Source: an uncultured Flavobacteriaceae bacterium (GTDB lineage Bacteria; Bacteroidota; Bacteroidia; Flavobacteriales; Flavobacteriaceae). From it: DNA of 64,000 nucleotides. The notes beneath the pieces are model-generated. The model worked only from the letters and a program-made list of their open reading frames with translations. It had not been told where the DNA came from and made no database searches. The stretch spans positions 1 to 64,000 of the forward strand of contig CAJIZJ010000003.1 in assembly GCA_905181825.1 (NCBI GenBank), given 5' to 3'. Shown here piece after piece: positions 325 through 30,982 of the stretch; the stretch's first letter is position 1, and each line of letters opens with the position of its first letter. A program made the position numbers and the translations under genes.

Positions 325-446
325 CAATGTATATAAAAAATAGGCGAATTAGTAATAAAATCAAGGTTTTTGGTTCGTATCAAAGTTTGTGTTTTACCGA
401 AAATTTAGTGCTTCAAAATCGCCTACTTTTCATATACTAACCGATA
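322..446 (+). repeat. attC-like long inverted-repeat element A
   Basis: TATATAAAAAATAGGCGA (330-347) pairs with TCGCCTACTTTTCATATA (419-436), 16/18. Right end CATATACTAACCGATA matches the right ends of the spacers at 4283-4298 and 5522-5536. Confidence 0.6.
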
Positions 447-522
447 TTGCACAATTCACCTAAAGGTGAACCCAAATGGCTACGTGCTTCGCACTCCCAC
501 CCTTTGGGATTGTGCAATATCG
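442..522. repeat. compact nested palindromic element
   Basis: Perfect 14-bp closing stem CGATATTGCACAAT/ATTGTGCAATATCG (442-455/509-522) encloses hairpin TTCACC-TAAA-GGTGAA (455-470) and stem CCCAAA/TTTGGG (471-476/503-508), which itself encloses GTGC-TTC-GCAC (484-494). Confidence 0.75.
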
Positions 523-634: not shown

Positions 635-754
635 AACGTTCTCTTGTCTTTTTAATGAATCGCATTAAAATGCTTCCATTTAAAACCCAGAACGTCACTG
701 CGTATAGCGCGGCGTTAGCCAATTGCCAAGCCCTTTCACTAAAAAAACATAAAT

Positions 755-2653
755 ATGATGAAAAGAAAAATCTTAAATATATGTCAAAGATTACTCTTAA
801 TTTTTATTATCTACGTATTAAACTCCTGTGGTGTTTCTAAAATCAATAAAATAAGTGCTCCTTCTTTACAGGTATTCATAGATTTAGTTCAAGTGGTTGA
901 AGACAAAATAAAAGTAACCATAACTCTAAATAACCTGACACCAAAAACGAACACTTTTTATATTCCAGAAATTGTTCCTGGCACGTATTCTGACAAAGAC
1001 TATGGTCAGTATATACAAGACTTTAAAGCCTTTGGCCAAGATGGTAATTTATTAACTATAGAAAGGAAAGATAATAACTCTTGGTACATCCCCAATATGG
1101 ATAAGTTGCGTAAAATAACTTACTGGGTAAACGATAGTTTTGATAGAGAAAAGGAGAAAAAGCCATTAGATGGTATGTTAGCTACAGTAGGAACAAATTT
1201 TGAAAAAGGGGATAATTTTTACTTGAATATGCACTCAATAGTTGGATATATATATGGATATACAAATACTCCTTATAACCTAGAAATATTATACCCAAAT
1301 AACCTTTTTGCCACAACTTCTATGAAGGAGGTTAAAACCATTGAACAGAATAATACAAAGATATCTTATTATTCTGCAAATAGATATTTTTCTATTATTG
1401 ACAATCCTATACTTATTCAAAAAGATACTAGCCTGCATTTTCAAGTAGATGATATGGACATTGAATTAGCATTGTTTAGCAAATCTAAAAATATTAACCC
1501 TGTAAAATTAAAATCGGTGCTTCAGGAAACCATGAAGGCACAAAAACAATATTTAGGAAATTTAAAAACAACAGATAGTTATACCATCTTACTTTTTGGA
1601 TTACCCTCTTCTATCTTCTCTGGTTTTGGCGCATTAGAACACCACTCTTCTACTATTGGTGTTTTTAATGATGATTTTAATCAAGAAGTCATAGAGGAAA
1701 GTGCCAGAGATGTTATTTCTCACGAGTTTTTTCATATAGTCACACCATTGCAATTACATTCAGAATACATTCATGATTTTGAATACAATTCCCCTAAGAA
1801 AATGTCAAAACATTTATGGTTATATGAAGGGTTAACAGAGTATTTTGCTAATATATTTCTGGTAAATCAAAAACTAATTACAGAGAAAGAGTTTTATGCT
1901 CGCATAATGAGTAAAATTAATCAGTCTAAAGCGTATTCTGATACGATTTCTTTTACCAAAATGAGCGAACATATTTTAACAGATTCCTACAAAGACCAAT
2001 ATATGAATGTCTATAAAAAAGGAACGCTGATAGCTTTGGCACTAGACATACAATTGCGAGAACTAAGCAATGGTAAGCAAGGAGTTCTAGATTTGGTGAA
2101 AAATTTATCTAAAAAATATAACCCAAATCACCCATTTGAAGATGATACCTTTATAGAAGAAATAACTAAATTAACCAACCCAAGTATTGGTTTTTTTTTT
2201 AAGAATCACGTTCAAGGCAACACACCTATTTCTTATGAAGCCATATTGAAAAAGGTAGGTATTGCTATAGAGAAGAAAGAAGTGAATACCTCTTATTTTA
2301 TACATACTAACAAAGAACAGTCTATATATTTTGATTACGGTCCTAATAAAGGTTTTTTCTTTGGTGGAGACCTCCCACTTAATAGTTGGCTTGTTGAAAT
2401 GGGCGTGCAAAAAGGCGATATTATTGTATCTGTTAATGGTAAAACGTTTGGAAGTAACATAAAACAAATTATAGAGGATTCCTTTTCATGGAAAATGGAA
2501 ACAAAAGTTACCATAACCATAAAACGAGACGGTAAAGAAATACAGTTAAAAGGAAATGCTTCCTCACCAAAAGTAATCGAGTCCGTTTTAGTAACTGACC
2601 CAAATGCTTCTAAAAAAAATAAACTAATAAGAGATAGTTGGTTATTCAACTAA
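755..2653 (+). CDS. M61-family metallopeptidase with C-terminal PDZ domain, lipoprotein signal
   Basis: HEFFHIVTPLQLHSEYIHDF (HExxH) and GLTEYFANIF; PDZ-like 'GVQKGDIIVSVNGKTF'; N-terminal hydrophobic stretch ending in Cys (LNSCG). Confidence 0.85.
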   Translation: MMKRKILNICQRLLLIFIIYVLNSCGVSKINKISAPSLQVFIDLVQVVEDKIKVTITLNNLTPKTNTFYIPEIVPGTYSDKDYGQYIQDFKAFGQDGNLLTIERKDNNSWYIPNMDKLRKITYWVNDSFDREKEKKPLDGMLATVGTNFEKGDNFYLNMHSIVGYIYGYTNTPYNLEILYPNNLFATTSMKEVKTIEQNNTKISYYSANRYFSIIDNPILIQKDTSLHFQVDDMDIELALFSKSKNINPVKLKSVLQETMKAQKQYLGNLKTTDSYTILLFGLPSSIFSGFGALEHHSSTIGVFNDDFNQEVIEESARDVISHEFFHIVTPLQLHSEYIHDFEYNSPKKMSKHLWLYEGLTEYFANIFLVNQKLITEKEFYARIMSKINQSKAYSDTISFTKMSEHILTDSYKDQYMNVYKKGTLIALALDIQLRELSNGKQGVLDLVKNLSKKYNPNHPFEDDTFIEEITKLTNPSIGFFFKNHVQGNTPISYEAILKKVGIAIEKKEVNTSYFIHTNKEQSIYFDYGPNKGFFFGGDLPLNSWLVEMGVQKGDIIVSVNGKTFGSNIKQIIEDSFSWKMETKVTITIKRDGKEIQLKGNASSPKVIESVLVTDPNASKKNKLIRDSWLFN

Positions 2654-2668
2654 AATATTACAATTGTA

Positions 2669-2702
2669 ATTACAGTTTGGATACAAGTCCAAACTGTAAT
2701 TG
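2669..2702 (+). terminator. intrinsic terminator hairpin
   Basis: ATTACAGTTTGGA-TACAAG-TCCAAACTGTAAT, perfect 13-bp stem, followed by TGCTTTT. Confidence 0.75.
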
Positions 2703-2760
2703 CTTTTAGAAACAACTTTAACTCTTTCTACTAAAGGTAGAAAATAACCCCAAAAACAAA

Positions 2761-4167
2761 ATGAGAAAAATTGAACTATATGGTGCAGATTGGTGTCCAG
2801 ACTGCAGAAGAGCTAAATCTTTTTTAACTGATAACAATATTGAGTTTACTTTTATTGATGTTGATTTAGATAAAAATGCTACAGAAAAAGTAGAAAAAAT
2901 CAACAACGGTAAGAGAATTATTCCAACGGTAATTATTAATGATAAACCATTTACTAATCCAAATAATGTGGAACTTTCAGCAGTTTTAGGTATAAATGAA
3001 GCTGGCAGGGTTCAACTATTTGGTGCGGACTGGTGCCCTGATTGCAGAAGAGCTAAAAACTTTTTGAGAGATAATGCTATTAATTTTGAATTCATAGATG
3101 TTGATGCAAATGATTGGGCAACTGCAAAAGTTGAAGAAATTAACAATGGAAAAAGAATCATACCTACCATTTTAATTGATGACATTACTCATACAAATCC
3201 TGACAATGTTGCCTTAACGAAGCTTTTGTCCATAAACATAGAAAAGGAACATAAAATATTTGACACGATAATAATTGGAGGTGGTGCGGCAGGTTTGACA
3301 ACCTCTATTTACGCTCAAAGGGATCGTTTCGACACACTTCTTTTAGAGAAAAAAAACATTGGTGGCAATGCATTTTTAACAGAAAAAATCGAAAACTATC
3401 CTGGTTTCACTTCTATTTCTGGTCCCAAATTAATGGATAAAATGGAGGAACAGGCAAAAACTTATGGCGCTGTCATAAAAACGGGAGAAGAAGTGATTAA
3501 TATTTCAAAAAAAGATGGGTTGTTTGCTATAAATACTAAAAGCACATCTTATTTTGGTAAAACAGTAGTGTTATCTACAGGGTCTACATATAGATTATTA
3601 GGAATTCCTAATGAAACTGAATTAATTGGGTCTGGAATTCATTTTTGTGCTACTTGTGATGGAGCATTTTATAGAGATAAAGATATTATTGTAATAGGTG
3701 GAGGAAACTCAGCCTTAGAAGAAGGGATATTTCTTGCAGGGTTCTGTAAATCAGTAAAAATTGTTAATCGATCTAATACCTTTATTGCTTCAAAGACTTA
3801 TATAGAAAAGTTAAAAACAATTGATAATATCTCTACTTATATGAATAAAACTTCTCTTGAATTTATAGCTGGAGAAAATGAATTATTTCAATCGTTAAAA
3901 GTAAAAGATAATGAAACAAGTAAAGAAGAATTAATCTTGGCTGATGGAGTATTTATATTTATTGGGCTAATACCAAATACAAAACCATTCGAAGAGTTAA
4001 TTGAATTAAATGAAAGAAATTTTATTGTAACAACAGGCTTAGCAGAAACTAATGTCAAAGGAATATTTGCTGCAGGAGATTGCAGAGAAGGTGCAATAGC
4101 CCAAGTAGCTGCAGCAACTGGAGAAGGTGTTTTAGCAAGTTATGGCATTAAGAACTATTTAAAATAA
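2761..4167 (+). CDS. tandem glutaredoxin-like domains fused to thioredoxin reductase (FAD/NAD(P)-dependent)
   Basis: Two repeats of 'GADWCPDCRRAK.FL.DN...F.FIDVD...A..KVE.INNGKRIIPT', then FAD motif GGGAAGL, redox CATCDG, NAD(P) motif GGGNSALEE and C-terminal 'GIFAAGDCR'. Confidence 0.9.
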   Translation: MRKIELYGADWCPDCRRAKSFLTDNNIEFTFIDVDLDKNATEKVEKINNGKRIIPTVIINDKPFTNPNNVELSAVLGINEAGRVQLFGADWCPDCRRAKNFLRDNAINFEFIDVDANDWATAKVEEINNGKRIIPTILIDDITHTNPDNVALTKLLSINIEKEHKIFDTIIIGGGAAGLTTSIYAQRDRFDTLLLEKKNIGGNAFLTEKIENYPGFTSISGPKLMDKMEEQAKTYGAVIKTGEEVINISKKDGLFAINTKSTSYFGKTVVLSTGSTYRLLGIPNETELIGSGIHFCATCDGAFYRDKDIIVIGGGNSALEEGIFLAGFCKSVKIVNRSNTFIASKTYIEKLKTIDNISTYMNKTSLEFIAGENELFQSLKVKDNETSKEELILADGVFIFIGLIPNTKPFEELIELNERNFIVTTGLAETNVKGIFAAGDCREGAIAQVAAATGEGVLASYGIKNYLK

Positions 4168-4170
4168 CGA

Positions 4171-4303
4171 TTTGCTAACAATGAATAAGAATAATAGCGG
4201 TTTAGTGCTAAATCCAAATTAAATAATTACAAAAAAGGTCTGTGTTTAATCAAAAGTTAGCGTGTTTTAATCCGCTGTTATTCACATACTATCCGTTAGC
4301 AAA
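4171..4303 (+). repeat. attC-like long inverted-repeat element B
   Basis: Terminal TTTGCTAAC (4171-4179)/GTTAGCAAA (4295-4303), perfect 9 bp. Inner ATAATAGCGG (4191-4200)/CCGCTGTTAT (4272-4281), 9/10. Right-end motif CACATACTATCCGTTA. Confidence 0.7.
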
Positions 4304-4317
4304 TATATAGATCACTT

Positions 4318-4890
4318 GTGAAGCAATTATTACAGAAAATATCAATATGTACCGTTTGCGTTCCTCATTTAGAACTTGGTCCAAGACCAATAGTTTCAGC
4401 ACATCGTAAAAGCAAGATAATTATTATTGGACAAGCTCCAGGAACTGTGGTTCATGAAAGTGGTATCCCTTGGGATGATAAGAGTGGAGAAAATTTAAGA
4501 AAATGGATGGATGTTAACAAAACAACTTTTTATGACCCTCAAAAGGTTGCTTTAGTTCCTATGGGGTTTTGTTATCCTGGAAAAGGAAAATCAGGAGATT
4601 TAGCTCCAAGAAAAGAATGTGCCCCACTTTGGCATAATTCACTCATAACACAAATGAAAGAAGTGAAATTAATTTTATTAGTGGGGACATATGCTCAAAA
4701 CTATTACCTTAAAAAAGATGCGAGAAAAACACTAACTGAAACAGTGAAAAACTATCAAGAATATCTACCTAAATACTTTGTACTTCCACATCCATCTCCA
4801 AGAAATAATATTTGGCAAGCCAAAAATGATTGGTTTAAACTAAAGGTAACTCCTGAATTGCAGCTAAGAGTAAAAGAAATATTAGATTAA
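4318..4890 (+). CDS. uracil-DNA glycosylase family protein (GTG start)
   Basis: 'IIIIGQAPG' and 'LPHPSPRNN' motifs of the UDG superfamily. Confidence 0.8.
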   Translation: MKQLLQKISICTVCVPHLELGPRPIVSAHRKSKIIIIGQAPGTVVHESGIPWDDKSGENLRKWMDVNKTTFYDPQKVALVPMGFCYPGKGKSGDLAPRKECAPLWHNSLITQMKEVKLILLVGTYAQNYYLKKDARKTLTETVKNYQEYLPKYFVLPHPSPRNNIWQAKNDWFKLKVTPELQLRVKEILD

Positions 4891-4894
4891 ACAA

Positions 4895-4948
4895 TTGCTA
4901 ACAAAACCTAAACTGCATTAAAACGCAGCTTAGCCAGAACGTAAGCAA
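4895..4948 (+). repeat. compact attC-like hairpin D
   Basis: TTGCTAAC (4895-4902)...GTAAGCAA (4941-4948) outer boxes, 7/8; inner CTAAACTGC (4908-4916)/GCAGCTTAG (4925-4933), 8/9; loop ATTAAAAC. Confidence 0.65.
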
Positions 4949-4962
4949 GAAAACATAGATTA

Positions 4963-5340
4963 ATGAGAAAATTAATTAGTTCAGGGACTAAGTTTGAAAA
5001 AGAAATTGGTTATTCGAGAGCTGTTGTTCAGGGCAACTGGGTTGTTGTATCGGGAACAACGGGTTACAACTACGAAACAATGACCATTGAAGATGATATA
5101 ATATCACAAACTGAACAATGTTTAATTAACATCTCAAATGCTTTAATTCAAGCAGGGTCAAATTTAGATGAAGTGATTCGAGTAACATACATATTGACAG
5201 ATGCCACAGAATTCGAAAAGTGCTGGTCGACACTTCGGAAATATTTTGGGAAAATTAGACCCGCTGCGACTATGTTTTCAGCAGGACTGGCGGACCCAAA
5301 AATGAAGATTGAAATACAGGTTACTGCATTAAAAAAGTAA
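4963..5340 (+). CDS. RidA family protein (YjgF/YER057c/UK114)
   Basis: 'VVVSGTTGYN', 'QTEQCLINISNALIQAGSNLDEVIRVTYILTD' and 'IEIQVTALKK' are typical of RidA-like proteins. Confidence 0.85.
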   Translation: MRKLISSGTKFEKEIGYSRAVVQGNWVVVSGTTGYNYETMTIEDDIISQTEQCLINISNALIQAGSNLDEVIRVTYILTDATEFEKCWSTLRKYFGKIRPAATMFSAGLADPKMKIEIQVTALKK

Positions 5341-5536
5341 AACTAGCTTACAAAACTTTATATAGTAAATAAGGCGTTTGATGGTTTACGAAAGATCAGT
5401 GCTGTTTACCAACAACGCCAAATCGTTGATTTACTTTTAAAATGAATGCGATAAGAAAAAACACATGGTTTTGGCTAAAAATAAACTTGAAATTTTACCG
5501 GTTTCTGCTGCCCTAATGGGAATATACTATCCGATA
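5341..5536 (+). repeat. probable degenerate attC-like element C
   Basis: Left part TTACAAAACTTTATATAGTAAATAAGGCGTTTG. Right-end motif ATATACTATCCGATA (5522-5536) matches elements A and B. Confidence 0.4.
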
Positions 5537-26606: not shown

Positions 26607-27710
26607 CTACTGATAATTTATTGAATTGAGTGCGTAAATAGCGAAGCTAGCCAACCAATGTCCGCCTTCATAACTATCTCCCACGACGCTAGGCAATGAA
26701 TAATTAATGTGCAGATTAGCAATTGTGTTTAGATGGCTGTACTGCTCAATATCTTTTGCAATCACATTAAGACTCCAGGCACGAGAAAAATTAAGTCCGT
26801 CCAAATGAACAAGCTTTCCGTCGGTTCGATCCGACACAATTCCGGGTTCTAAAGTAAAGCCAGCATCCTTGAGCTGTGGCAAAAAGCCATCGATCCATTT
26901 ACTAAATATTTGAGGAGCTAACACGCGCTTCATCAATGCAGCTTCTTCTAAACAGGGAGATAAGAAATCATAGCCCCCAGGCTCCCAAATAATCGGACAC
27001 TCTTGATCCTTTAAATAAAAGTCCTTAGATCGCTCTTTAATAACAGTCATCAGCATGTCTGCACCCACTGAAACTGCATAATCCCAAGCAAAACTCAATC
27101 CAAAAGCAGTATTAGGGTGTTCACCGACTCTAATAGGGTAATTTAATTTAGGTAAAAACGAAATGTACTTTAACACAATTAAATCAGTCAAAGGCTGTAA
27201 GTTTCGCTCCAACTGTTTTCCGACAGGATCTTCCCAGTTATGAAGCTCTTCTGCCAACTTAAGTAACCACGCCCATCCGTAAGTTCTCTCAAACGACGCA
27301 TTGTGAACTTCATCAAAATATGACACTTCTTTTAAAATATTTTCTTTTGAAATACTTTCTAATAATTGAAGTTTTATTAATTCCTTGTTTTCTAGATCTG
27401 GAAATTGCTTTAATAACCGTACTAAACTCCAGTGTCCATGAACAGCTGAATGCCAGTCAAAACAGCCATAAAAGGCAGGGTGCAGTGTTTTTGGAGACAA
27501 TAAGTCTTCCGGACCACCAAGGGTCTGACCCAGCCTGTATGGATATTCAACATCAATACAATACAATGGCAGATGCGACAAGCGATTGGCTTCTTCCAAA
27601 TTCAATCTAGGAGATTCGACATACACAAGTGAACCCTGCTTATTTTTAACCTGACTGCAACTGACGACACATGAAAATACAAAGACTATAATTAATGTTT
27701 TTAATGACAT
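26607..27710 (-). CDS. DUF2891 family protein, lipoprotein-like signal
   Basis: 'LHPAFYGCFDWHSAVHGHWSLVRLLKQFP' and 'YGWAWLLKLAEEL' are typical of DUF2891. Confidence 0.85.
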   Translation of the reverse strand: MSLKTLIIVFVFSCVVSCSQVKNKQGSLVYVESPRLNLEEANRLSHLPLYCIDVEYPYRLGQTLGGPEDLLSPKTLHPAFYGCFDWHSAVHGHWSLVRLLKQFPDLENKELIKLQLLESISKENILKEVSYFDEVHNASFERTYGWAWLLKLAEELHNWEDPVGKQLERNLQPLTDLIVLKYISFLPKLNYPIRVGEHPNTAFGLSFAWDYAVSVGADMLMTVIKERSKDFYLKDQECPIIWEPGGYDFLSPCLEEAALMKRVLAPQIFSKWIDGFLPQLKDAGFTLEPGIVSDRTDGKLVHLDGLNFSRAWSLNVIAKDIEQYSHLNTIANLHINYSLPSVVGDSYEGGHWLASFAIYALNSINYQ

Positions 27711-27938
27711 AAAAATCGTGTTTTAGAGCTGTTTCTTTTTTGTTTAGTGAAAATAACTTTTTTATTTAACCTAGGTAGATTCCTATTAAAAAAATTAATT
27801 AACCAACTTTCGCCTTCCAAACTCTTCCACTTGACTGCCTCTCTTGTATGTGTTTTATAAATTAAAGGCACCCCTTCTAAATCCGCTATCGTTCTAGCAA
27901 CTTTGAGGGTACGATCATAGCGCTTGCTAATAACTATT
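27410..27938. repeat. left copy of a degenerate ~0.5 kb direct repeat (DUF2891 5' end, intergenic, yifB 3' remnant)
   Basis: Aligns with 30450-30982. Shared blocks include 'ataagtcttccggacc', 'ataaaaatcgtgtttta', 'ctaggtagattcc.attaaaaaaatta' and 'ccccttctaaatccgctatcgttctagcaactttgagg'. Confidence 0.85.
27787..27938 (-). pseudogene. remnant of the yifB 3' end
   Basis: Reverse strand translates to [40 protein letters not shown] versus intact YifB [41 protein letters not shown]. Confidence 0.85.
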
Positions 27939-28035
27939 TAAACGGGAACAATAAAATACATAAGAATACTCAGGCTTTGGCAGCATAACTTTTAATTTTC
28001 AGCAAGAAATCCTATGAAAAAAAATGTGACCACTT

Positions 28036-29493
28036 CTAGAAGCCTTCAATGTTTTTCTGATAGCTTGAATGTAGAGTTAACTTTAATTCAGAAACGGTCT
28101 GTTTATATTCTTTTAACTGGGCAATATTTTCATTTTCGTTTTTCGTTGTCCTGTGGTCATACAGCATCGTAGCTATAGTTGAATTGTCTTGTGGCTTTAT
28201 AAATTCAGTATAACTGAAGTCGTTTGTTTTCAATGTAAATCCGTTGGTTTGTTTTATAAAAACATGCTTTTTACCTTTCAAATTCGGGTTGTTCAAAATA
28301 GACACTACACTGGTTCCGTCTAATTGGTTCTTAGGCACTTCTAAATTACACAGTTCTGCTAATGTAGGGTAGATATCTACTAAGGCCGTCAAGGCATTAG
28401 TAGGGCCTTTGCCCTTAGCTAGAGGGTTGTAAATAATTAAAGGCACCTGAGTGGAAGTGTTGTAATTCGTGAACTTTGCCCACTGAGTGTGTTCTTGCAA
28501 ATTATAGCCGTGGTCAGAGACTAAAATAACAATTGTGTTTTGATCAAGCTGCTGCTTTTTTAGCTCTTGTAAAACTTTGCCAATTAAGGCATCAGTGTAA
28601 GATACCGTTGCATAATATCCGTGTATTAAATCAATGGCTACACTGTCAGACACCTGTCCGCGCTTAGGAATGTTAGAATAACTTCGCATTTCACCCCAAT
28701 TACTAATACTCATTTTTGGGGCATTTCTGGGGATATAATTATAGTTTTCAGGTTGTTTAATTGTAGTTCGATCATAAAGATCCCAATACTTTTTAGGGGC
28801 ATTAAACGGCAAATGTGGGGTGATAAAGCCCGCGGTTAAAAAGAAAGGTTTAGCGCTCTTTTTAAGTTTTTTAAGATCTCGGATTACTTTTTCAGTTAAC
28901 AACCCATCAATATAAGCAGAGTCAGAAACCTCAGCGCTTTCATAAGCGGGCCCTGTATCTGTTGCTTTATACAAGGATCTATTATTGGGATCTTGATAGT
29001 CTTTCCAAAGAGATTGCCAATGATCAGTGGGCGCTAAGCCTTTGTTATTTTCATCAAAAGCATAGGGTCGCCAAACTTCACTCCAATCCGATTCTCTGTC
29101 GTCTAGATGATGGTAAATTTTTCCATTTGAAATCGTAGTATACCCATTGTTTTTAAATAACTGAGGAAGTGTCACAGCTTCAGGTGTTTCTTTTTCAACA
29201 AAGGTCTTATAATCCAAAAATCTGTTTTTTGTGGGCAACATTCCTGTAAGCATACTTGCCCGTGATGCGCCGCAAACGGGAACATTACAATAAGCATTTG
29301 TAAACTTCACTCCTTGTTCAGCCAACGCATCAATAGTTGGAGCATGTATTTGGGAGACTCCAAAACTTGCTAGTTCTGGACGTAAATCGTCTACATACAG
29401 CAATAAAACATTGAGTTTTTGAGTTTCTTGTTCAATTATTGGCCGATTACTGTTTAAAAAAGCTAAAAACAGAAGGAATATCAGTTTTTTCAT
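28036..29493 (-). CDS. sulfatase, iduronate-2-sulfatase-like
   Basis: 'NVLLLYVDDLRPELASFG', formylglycine-type motif 'VCGASRASMLTG', 'HLPFNAPKKYWDLYD', 'VILVSDHGYNLQEHTQWAKF'; signal peptide. Confidence 0.92.
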   Translation of the reverse strand: MKKLIFLLFLAFLNSNRPIIEQETQKLNVLLLYVDDLRPELASFGVSQIHAPTIDALAEQGVKFTNAYCNVPVCGASRASMLTGMLPTKNRFLDYKTFVEKETPEAVTLPQLFKNNGYTTISNGKIYHHLDDRESDWSEVWRPYAFDENNKGLAPTDHWQSLWKDYQDPNNRSLYKATDTGPAYESAEVSDSAYIDGLLTEKVIRDLKKLKKSAKPFFLTAGFITPHLPFNAPKKYWDLYDRTTIKQPENYNYIPRNAPKMSISNWGEMRSYSNIPKRGQVSDSVAIDLIHGYYATVSYTDALIGKVLQELKKQQLDQNTIVILVSDHGYNLQEHTQWAKFTNYNTSTQVPLIIYNPLAKGKGPTNALTALVDIYPTLAELCNLEVPKNQLDGTSVVSILNNPNLKGKKHVFIKQTNGFTLKTNDFSYTEFIKPQDNSTIATMLYDHRTTKNENENIAQLKEYKQTVSELKLTLHSSYQKNIEGF

Positions 29494-29617
29494 GATTTAC
29501 AAGTTAAATGTAAGCCAAATTTAATGAAAAAATGTTTAGTACAGTTAGCGCAAATGCTCCTTGTTTGTACAGACCTTGGAAATACAAGTTTCAAAAATAT
29601 TTTGGATTGCACTGATA

Positions 29618-29655
29618 AAAAAAAGCAAGCTATAAATATATAACTTGCTTTTTAT
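29618..29655. terminator. probable terminator hairpin
   Basis: AAAAGCAAG...CTTGCTTTTTA between the NTF2-like and sulfatase genes. Confidence 0.55.
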
Positions 29656-29715
29656 TTTTAATAGTGGATACAATGGTACTTGATTTCAAAAGTAAGATTC
29701 TTTTGTTTATTCCCT

Positions 29716-30192
29716 TTATTTAAGCGGCCTCTGCCACTGACTGAGATAAATGATTTTGCCGTCTTTAATTCTAAACATTTCATGTGCTGCAAGTTGTTGC
29801 GAACTACTATCAGAAGCCACATACTGTTCGTAAGTCCAAAGCAATACCCATCGCTGATCAGTAGCTTTATCCTTAAGAGGAATCCATGTAAGTGGACGGA
29901 TTCTTATGTTGTAATTATTTATAAAATCTTTGAAAGCCGCATCCATTTCATCCAAGCCGTTCAATGGTGAGCCATCAGACAATATGGCTGTAAAATCAGA
30001 ATGAAATAATGATCTTGCAGTTGTATAATCTGAGTTTTCCGCTGCTTTTTGGAGCTCTAGCACCAATTCTAAAGCAGACGTATTTTGGTCTAGAGTCCAA
30101 TCGGCCGGCCATGCTGCAGTATAGGCAGCTTGTTGTTGAGAAAATAGTCCGAGGGAAATAAATAGTAAAATAGTTGTAATACTTTTTTTCAT
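29716..30192 (-). CDS. SnoaL/NTF2-like (DUF4440-type) secreted protein
   Basis: 'LQKAAENSDYTTARSLFHSDFTAILSDGSPLNG' and 'AAHEMFRIKDGKIIYLSQWQRP'; signal peptide. Confidence 0.7.
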   Translation of the reverse strand: MKKSITTILLFISLGLFSQQQAAYTAAWPADWTLDQNTSALELVLELQKAAENSDYTTARSLFHSDFTAILSDGSPLNGLDEMDAAFKDFINNYNIRIRPLTWIPLKDKATDQRWVLLWTYEQYVASDSSSQQLAAHEMFRIKDGKIIYLSQWQRPLK

Positions 30193-30449
30193 AGTGATGA
30201 TTTATTAGTTTTAATTAACAACTAATATAATAAAAAAGAGTTGTATTAAACAAGTTGTTTTGTATCGATTATTGATCTCAAATACACTTTTGTATAATTC
30301 GCATGAAAACAGTGAAGTTTTTATTTTAAAACTAATAAATTAAACTAATATTTAACACATCCTAAGTTTGTACAATGTAATGCTCTTAAAAATTCATAAC
30401 AATAAACGACACATTACCCAAAGCCCTAAATAAATTCAAAATGAGTATT

Positions 30450-30757
30450 ATGGAATTCTTAAATTAGTTTACGGATATTACACTGACGAAGAACAGTAGA
30501 TTCCAGTCAAAACAGCTACAAAAAAAAGGATGCAATGATTTTAGCTACAATAAGTCTTCCGGACCGTCCAAGGGATTAAACAAGCCTTTATGGAAATTCA
30601 ACATCAATGCAATGGCAGTTGCGGCAAGCGATTCGCTTTTTAAAATCAAATCCATAAAATCAACCAAAACTATATAATTCAGATTACTTTTAAAATCATT
30701 GCAACTGATAACTACATAAAACACAAAGGCTACAGTTAATATTTTTAATGAGATAAA
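30450..30757 (-). pseudogene. remnant of the 5' end of the DUF2891 gene
   Basis: Reverse strand gives ISLKILTVAFVFYVVISCNDFKSN versus intact MSLKTLIIVFVFSCVVSCSQVKN. The start ATG has become ATC and later frames decay. Confidence 0.8.
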
Positions 30758-30982
30758 AATCGTGTTTTACACCTCTTTCATTTTTGTTGAATGAAAACAA
30801 TTTTATATTTGAGCTAGGTAGATTCCAATTAAAAAAATTAACCCAACCATCCTTCCCTATCCAAACTCCTATACTGAATTGCCTCACTTATATGCGTTTT
30901 ATCAATTGAAGACACCCCTTCTAAATCCGCTATCGTTCTAGCAACTTTGAGGATGCGATCATAAGCACGTGCTGATAAATTA
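30450..30982. repeat. right copy of the ~0.5 kb direct repeat (DUF2891 5' remnant, intergenic, yifB 3' end)
   Basis: Aligns with 27410-27938 as described for the left copy; offset is about 3.04 kb. Confidence 0.85.

Follow-up and report, generated by a model that had tools for sequence, protein, structure and literature searches.

An integron cassette begins with bases that can pair with the R'' box of its own attC site, and an insert specific to the integrase IntI helps it to grip the folded attC. Salinibacter ruber was the sole member of the Bacteroidetes proper for which a survey with IntegronFinder 2.0 reported a complete integron (PMC9024848), so Flavobacteriaceae cassette arrays of the kind described here appear to have been missed by standard models. 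Other described systems come close in single respects. Cassettes that carry no gene are known from Vibrionaceae superintegrons (PMC11014356), and in Riemerella anatipestifer the gene aph(3')-IVb integrates independently of homology together with 27 bp of upstream sequence and 140 bp of attC-like downstream sequence, by a mechanism that was left open (PMC13148043). Here we describe a gene-less, strongly folded element, E, from cassette arrays of Flavobacteriaceae; no description of E or of this type of array turned up in the literature searched, whose scope excluded most subscription journals and all preprints.

The window analysed is a stretch of 64,000 nt running from base 1 onward of a flavobacterial MAG contig (CAJIZJ010000003.1; MAG of 1.66 Mb, 76.7% complete). 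Read by the rule that a cassette start matches its own R'', the window holds an array of about five cassettes, with the following features.

10–324, + strand: cargo open reading frame of cassette 1 (104 aa, hydrolase-like by eye, no Pfam hit); the start of this cassette lies beyond the contig end.
326–442, + strand: attC-like site A of cassette 1, with 22-nt inverted arms at 329–350/416–437.
443–713, + strand: element E, a gene-less integron-like cassette of 271 nt that consists of the foldback and the attC-like body B and ends just before the GTT of the cassette that follows.
443–521, + strand: the foldback, a three-way junction.
443–455/509–521, + strand: outer stem of the foldback, with the closing pair C442–G522.
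456–460/465–469, + strand: arm 1 of the foldback.
471–476/503–508, + strand: arm 2 of the foldback, with an apical hairpin at 484–487/491–494.
514–521, + strand: R''-like box of E, complementary to the E start at 443–450.
522–713, + strand: attC-like body B, with closing stem 522–533/702–713 (GCCGCGCTCTAC / GTATAGCGCGGC, then GTT), an arm near 534–541/624–631 and an inner stem near 637–643/689–694.
714–4294, + strand: cassette 3, starting GTTAGCCAATTG, with R'' at 4170–4179 and an attC-like site to 4294.
755–2653, + strand: M61-family peptidase open reading frame of cassette 3.
2761–4167, + strand: thioredoxin/thioredoxin-reductase-like open reading frame of cassette 3, named by eye.
4295–4940, + strand: cassette 4, with a uracil-DNA-glycosylase-like open reading frame at 4318–4890 (by eye) and a short attC-like hairpin at about 4900–4940.
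4941–5534, + strand: cassette 5, with a RidA-like open reading frame at 4963–5340 (by eye) and R'' at 5343–5351; the end of its attC-like site is tentative.

Elsewhere in the window, 27450–30963 holds two diverged direct copies at a spacing of about 3.05 kb, with segments 79–85% identical, probably a gene duplication.

A preliminary description of this DNA had singled out 442–522 as an 81-bp nested palindrome with a cloverleaf-like fold. The perfect 14-bp closing stem (442–455/509–522) and both inner arms are present as described, and the foldback reaches a minimum energy of −23.5 kcal/mol as DNA (z −8.3) and −35.6 kcal/mol as RNA (z −7.9), with 0/200 shuffles folding as stably. The fold is real, although an outer stem and two arms make it a three-way junction and not a four-arm cloverleaf. 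The palindrome also touches the right end of site A at its left end, an overlap noted at the outset, because two cassettes abut there. As a unit, however, 442–522 falls short: the palindrome is the front third of a longer element, 443–713.

Among 40 distinct copies of the foldback, 22/25 pairs have changed on both sides with pairing kept, and double-change cells number 215 compared with 58.6 in shuffles. Paired cells make up 94.9% of the foldback alignment, compared with 26–39% when partners are slid by 1–3 columns; fitting of this alignment to the structure is a bias in favor of pairing, but the effect far exceeds the controls. In BLAST matches, foldback and body B recur together in the genus and the family, with the outer stem altered in sequence and its complementarity retained. 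All three helices contribute to the covariation, including both inner arms. Since cassette logic concerns the outer stem only, it is not a full explanation of this pattern, and the inner hairpins of the foldback are kept by selection.

In E-rich genomes, the E unit (foldback plus B, 347–350 nt in G218 and G387) is interspersed with gene cassettes and keeps one orientation. Each of five single-gene cassettes flanked by E copies matches, with its first 14 nt, its own R'' (the one just before its attC-like site) at 11–13/14 positions; longer gaps between E copies (2.9–4.2 kb) show no such match. Over 12 cassettes, which include three from the window and four from a Myroides plasmid, matched starts and R'' boxes agree at a mean of 10.75 positions and mismatched ones at 7.66 (permutation P about 5e-5). 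Junctions that are attC-like but lack an E occur in the same array contigs of G218. In G387, the cassette after the last E begins with the element's own first 13 nt (GTTGAAGCACATT; L127, 12675) and seems to enter an attC-like site at once, possibly a recombination hybrid.

The Myroides odoratimimus plasmid (L050, 2460–6040) carries site A between blaOXA and blaMYO-1, within a gene run GNAT–blaOXA–blaMYO-1–aadS that is flanked on both sides by IS91-type genes. GNAT, blaMYO-1, and aadS show complementarity of start and R'', and blaOXA is an exception (6/14). On a Riemerella plasmid (L051, 3062–4986), site A follows estT. Site A, roughly 120 bp, is conserved across many Flavobacteriaceae genomes, and when the window is used to search plasmids, almost only this site matches; a full-length E (from G054) used as plasmid query gave no match.

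By the same rule, E is a cassette in its own right, one that has a start, an R'', and an attC-like site but no gene. The palindrome, described at the outset as inserted in the cassette junction, is therefore not something alien to the cassette system. Its start and R'' are only about 52 nt apart, so that their complementarity forms a stem of 13–14 bp, which accounts for the closing stem of the palindrome. This outer stem comprises 13 pairs, with 94.2% of cells paired and double changes at 11 pairs. Many E starts read GAT instead of GTT. A total of 22 complete copies, found by a search that required GTT at most 3 nt away, end in the B closing stem directly before GTT and a new cassette start; complementarity of that stem is 11–13/13 and the copies are 197–408 nt long. 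The remaining copies are truncated, diverged, or broken by contig ends, and those with a truncated B in L062, L067, and L070 may be dead. The shortest complete E (197 nt; L103 738–937, in G299) has a B body that measures only some 119 nt. Eight full elements give a consensus fold (RNAalifold) of foldback and branched B with 52 pairs, 23 of them with double changes. As a circle, E folds at −54 kcal/mol (top strand) or −59 kcal/mol (bottom strand) with 71% of its bases paired, compared with −23.6 ± 2.8 kcal/mol for top-strand shuffles. No conserved open reading frame was found in E. We also considered whether E is always part of the attC of the preceding gene, which is ruled out by a gene followed by B without a foldback (L038) and by the existence of junctions without E. 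A strict scan for AAC-arm...arm-GTT detected mostly B-type sites and missed short attC sites.

Copy number differs between the window's genome and its relatives. A search with 430–540 found no second copy in the element's own, incomplete genome, where other matches are chance runs of 14–24 nt or the element's own two arms. Relatives hold many copies. Rather than being single copy everywhere and free of compensatory changes, the element is thus multi-copy in relatives with extensive compensatory change. E-rich genomes hold 5–11 copies between gene cassettes, 99–100% identical where compared: five copies in G387 are 100% identical over 350 nt and those in G218 are 99.1–100% identical over 347 nt, whereas identity between genomes is only 41–61%. 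Relatives thus show the defined ends and the repeated, near-identical non-coding copies that mark a MITE-like element, and the window's genome holds a single copy.

Four divergent relatives, the window not among them, served to build a covariance model, which recovers the window element at an E-value of 3.3e-10. With this one model and strict filters, so that copy counts are lower bounds, we detected the foldback in 14/150 relatives (a carrier from the window's genus is G002), in 46/400 genomes sampled from Flavobacteriaceae (39/237 genera), and in one genome outside the family among 297 sampled from the phylum. A foldback copy in another family of the phylum (L126 1501–1578, G662) has no recognizable B end. 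When 84,980 species genomes were scanned for a pattern, 42 stretches matched: the informatively titled ones belong to Flavobacteriaceae (Flagellimonas, Hanstruepera, Maribacter, Winogradskyella, Croceitalea, Psychroserpens, and others) and the remainder are Bacteroidota MAGs. The viral contigs searched gave no match and a phage collection no related one, the Staphylococcus phage matches being weak (E-value 0.08, 37 nt) and taken as chance. We found no strain pair representing E before and after a move, and observed no excision or insertion event.

A distinct family of tyrosine recombinases accompanies some of these arrays. No IntI above the TIGR02249 cut-off occurs in 60 relatives or in 10 genomes with E, and TIGR02249 alone failed to separate array recombinases from Xer proteins. 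We built a profile, A5, from nine sequences, the best IntI-like matches in genomes with E, picked irrespective of position. In a search of 51 genomes, it separates the family from Xer proteins (E-values of at most 4e-81 and at least 3e-60, respectively). Of 39 A5 members, 12 have an E no more than 15 kb away, where 1.1 would be expected, and for 8 of them the distance is at most 5 kb (0.37 expected), compared with 0/46 Xer-like controls; expected values assume random placement, and contig breaks were scored as not near. The other 27/39 have no detected E within 15 kb, to which broken contigs and missed weak copies contribute. Members of A5 score 206–219 against the XerA cut-off of 220 and 192–204 against the IntI cut-off of 265. 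The family lacks the IntI-specific insert, because residues 181–245 of IntI4 are unmatched by the profile and only about 22 profile positions separate the matched parts. Because of this missing insert, the single-strand step with an A5 integrase may differ from that of IntI. The proteins are about 380 aa long, and in most members (L152, L153, L150, and others) about 100 aa of unassigned sequence extend the N-terminus; proteins of Acinetobacter plasmids annotated as TnpF or tyrosine recombinase are 47% identical to one member over 236 aa. Arrays at A5 loci are arranged in one of two ways, either divergently from the integrase gene or lying downstream and running in its direction. An A5 member is present in 5/18 genomes of the window's genus, and only an Xer-type match was detected in the window's own assembly (77% complete).

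Taken together, E is probably an integron-like mobile cassette without a gene, which multiplies as a non-autonomous, MITE-like passenger and is moved as folded DNA by an A5 integrase. We infer that E moves, that the A5 integrase acts catalytically on it through a single-stranded intermediate, and that the host gains no benefit; proximity makes this integrase the candidate mover of E in trans. In the proposed mechanism, the cassette start (GTT...) would be the detached half of the element's own recombination site, complementary to the R'' (...AAC) near its end; body B would serve as the attC-like site of E, and the bases between E start and R'' form two further hairpins. An A5 (XerA/IntI-like) tyrosine recombinase would recognize folded E and excise or copy it as a small, largely paired circle, and insertion of the circle at C^GTT junctions would multiply E between gene cassettes. 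A broader proposal is a separate integron-like system in Flavobacteriaceae, operated by insert-less XerA/IntI-like recombinases, in which E is an array parasite, consisting of folded DNA alone, that copies itself into junctions as a largely paired single-stranded circle; we advance it tentatively, as slightly short of an even bet.

Alternatively, E could be a regulatory cassette, kept for its benefit as a promoter or transcription insulator for the promoterless gene cassette that follows. E does lie immediately ahead of genes that share its orientation, each of several successive gene cassettes in G387 is preceded by an E, and gene-less Vibrio cassettes have promoter activity (PMC11014356). 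Nevertheless, the Bacteroidota promoter motif TTG-N17-23-TAnnTTTG shows no excess in E (mean best score 7.32 forward, 7.32 reverse, and 6.95 in shuffles), a weak test because the study of Vibrio cassettes states that promoters of gene-less cassettes are not identifiable in silico (PMC11014356), and a promoter would leave the covariation in all foldback helices unexplained. We consider a regulatory role unlikely.

E might instead belong to a recombination platform, a hub or attI-like site beside which gene cassettes are inserted and which is duplicated in the process. In several genomes (G387, G461, G423, and G299), no more than about 1 kb separates the element from the integrase gene, and in G387 E and single-gene cassettes follow each other in regular alternation. 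However, the E-less junctions in the array contigs of G218, the many A5 loci with no E detected nearby, and the presence in E of every part of an ordinary cassette (start, R'', and attC-like site) make a platform decidedly unlikely.

Function as a transcribed non-coding RNA, which the preliminary description had offered as one of two readings, would fit the stable RNA fold of 442–522 and the conserved unpaired bases in arm 2 (TTGCTACG / TCCCGCCC). No Rfam family matches the element, and the whole window yields only a tRNA. Furthermore, G–U cells (17) do not exceed A–C cells (23) in the foldback helices, whereas 6S-Flavo RNA of the same family, a control, has 63 and 0. This control is biased, its structure having been predicted by RNAalifold, which accepts G–U and penalizes A–C; the element's own alignment is biased in the same direction, yet shows no G–U excess. 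Because G–U and A–C mismatches are equally rare, the structural constraint would seem to act on the folding of DNA and not of RNA, and we regard a role as RNA as very improbable.

The other reading offered, a REP/MITE-like mobile palindrome at a cassette junction, came near the comparative data in its MITE-like part, but a REP/BIME or IS200/IS605-derived palindrome that a Y1 transposase mobilizes, although suggested by an imperfect, intergenic palindrome repeated in relatives, is largely refuted and scarcely credible, since the Y1/TnpA-REP transposase (Y1_Tnp, PF01797) is missing in the window's genome and in 9/12 genomes tested, including most E-rich ones, and E has cassette ends and sits at cassette junctions.

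If E is a mobile cassette moved by an A5 integrase, it raises the question of whether cassette arrays have MITEs of their own. E is a small, testable substrate, and if A5 acts on it, cassette recombination without the IntI insert becomes addressable. The position of site A beside blaOXA/blaMYO-1 and estT also touches on the homology-independent capture of resistance genes in Riemerella, which is mechanistically open (PMC13148043). The link to Riemerella rests on site A beside resistance genes on the Riemerella and Myroides plasmids and not on the aph(3')-IVb site. In the aph(3')-IVb system, the gene and its two flanks (27 bp at the 5′ side and an attC-like 140 bp at the 3′ side) integrate together; such cassettes carry genes and their movement was shown experimentally, whereas E has no gene and would move by the route proposed above.

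Compared with MITEs and REP elements, E is likewise a short, non-coding, palindromic repeat with multiple copies per genome, but its ends are cassette ends instead of transposon terminal repeats, it occupies cassette junctions, and no Y1 transposase goes with it. A5 proteins resemble XerA (NF040815, "site-specific tyrosine recombinase/integron integrase") and IntI (TIGR02249) as two-domain tyrosine recombinases and share a C-terminal SPLD-type motif with IntI; they differ in scoring under both curated cut-offs, in the N-terminal extension of most members, and in the missing insert. The E system shares with integron attC sites (R''/L''...L'/R') the AAC-stem...stem-GTT architecture, the GTT junction, and a start complementary to R'', whereas body B is about 119–330 nt long and branched and the complementarity of start and R'' extends to about 13 nt. 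The gene-less cassettes of Vibrionaceae superintegrons (PMC11014356) are like E in having no gene, an orientation set by the array, and an attC-like end. Promoter activity is documented for the Vibrio cassettes only; E, in contrast, is a Flavobacteriaceae element of 197–408 nt, largely folded with a conserved structure, near-identical in its multiple copies within a genome, and linked to a recombinase that is not IntI.
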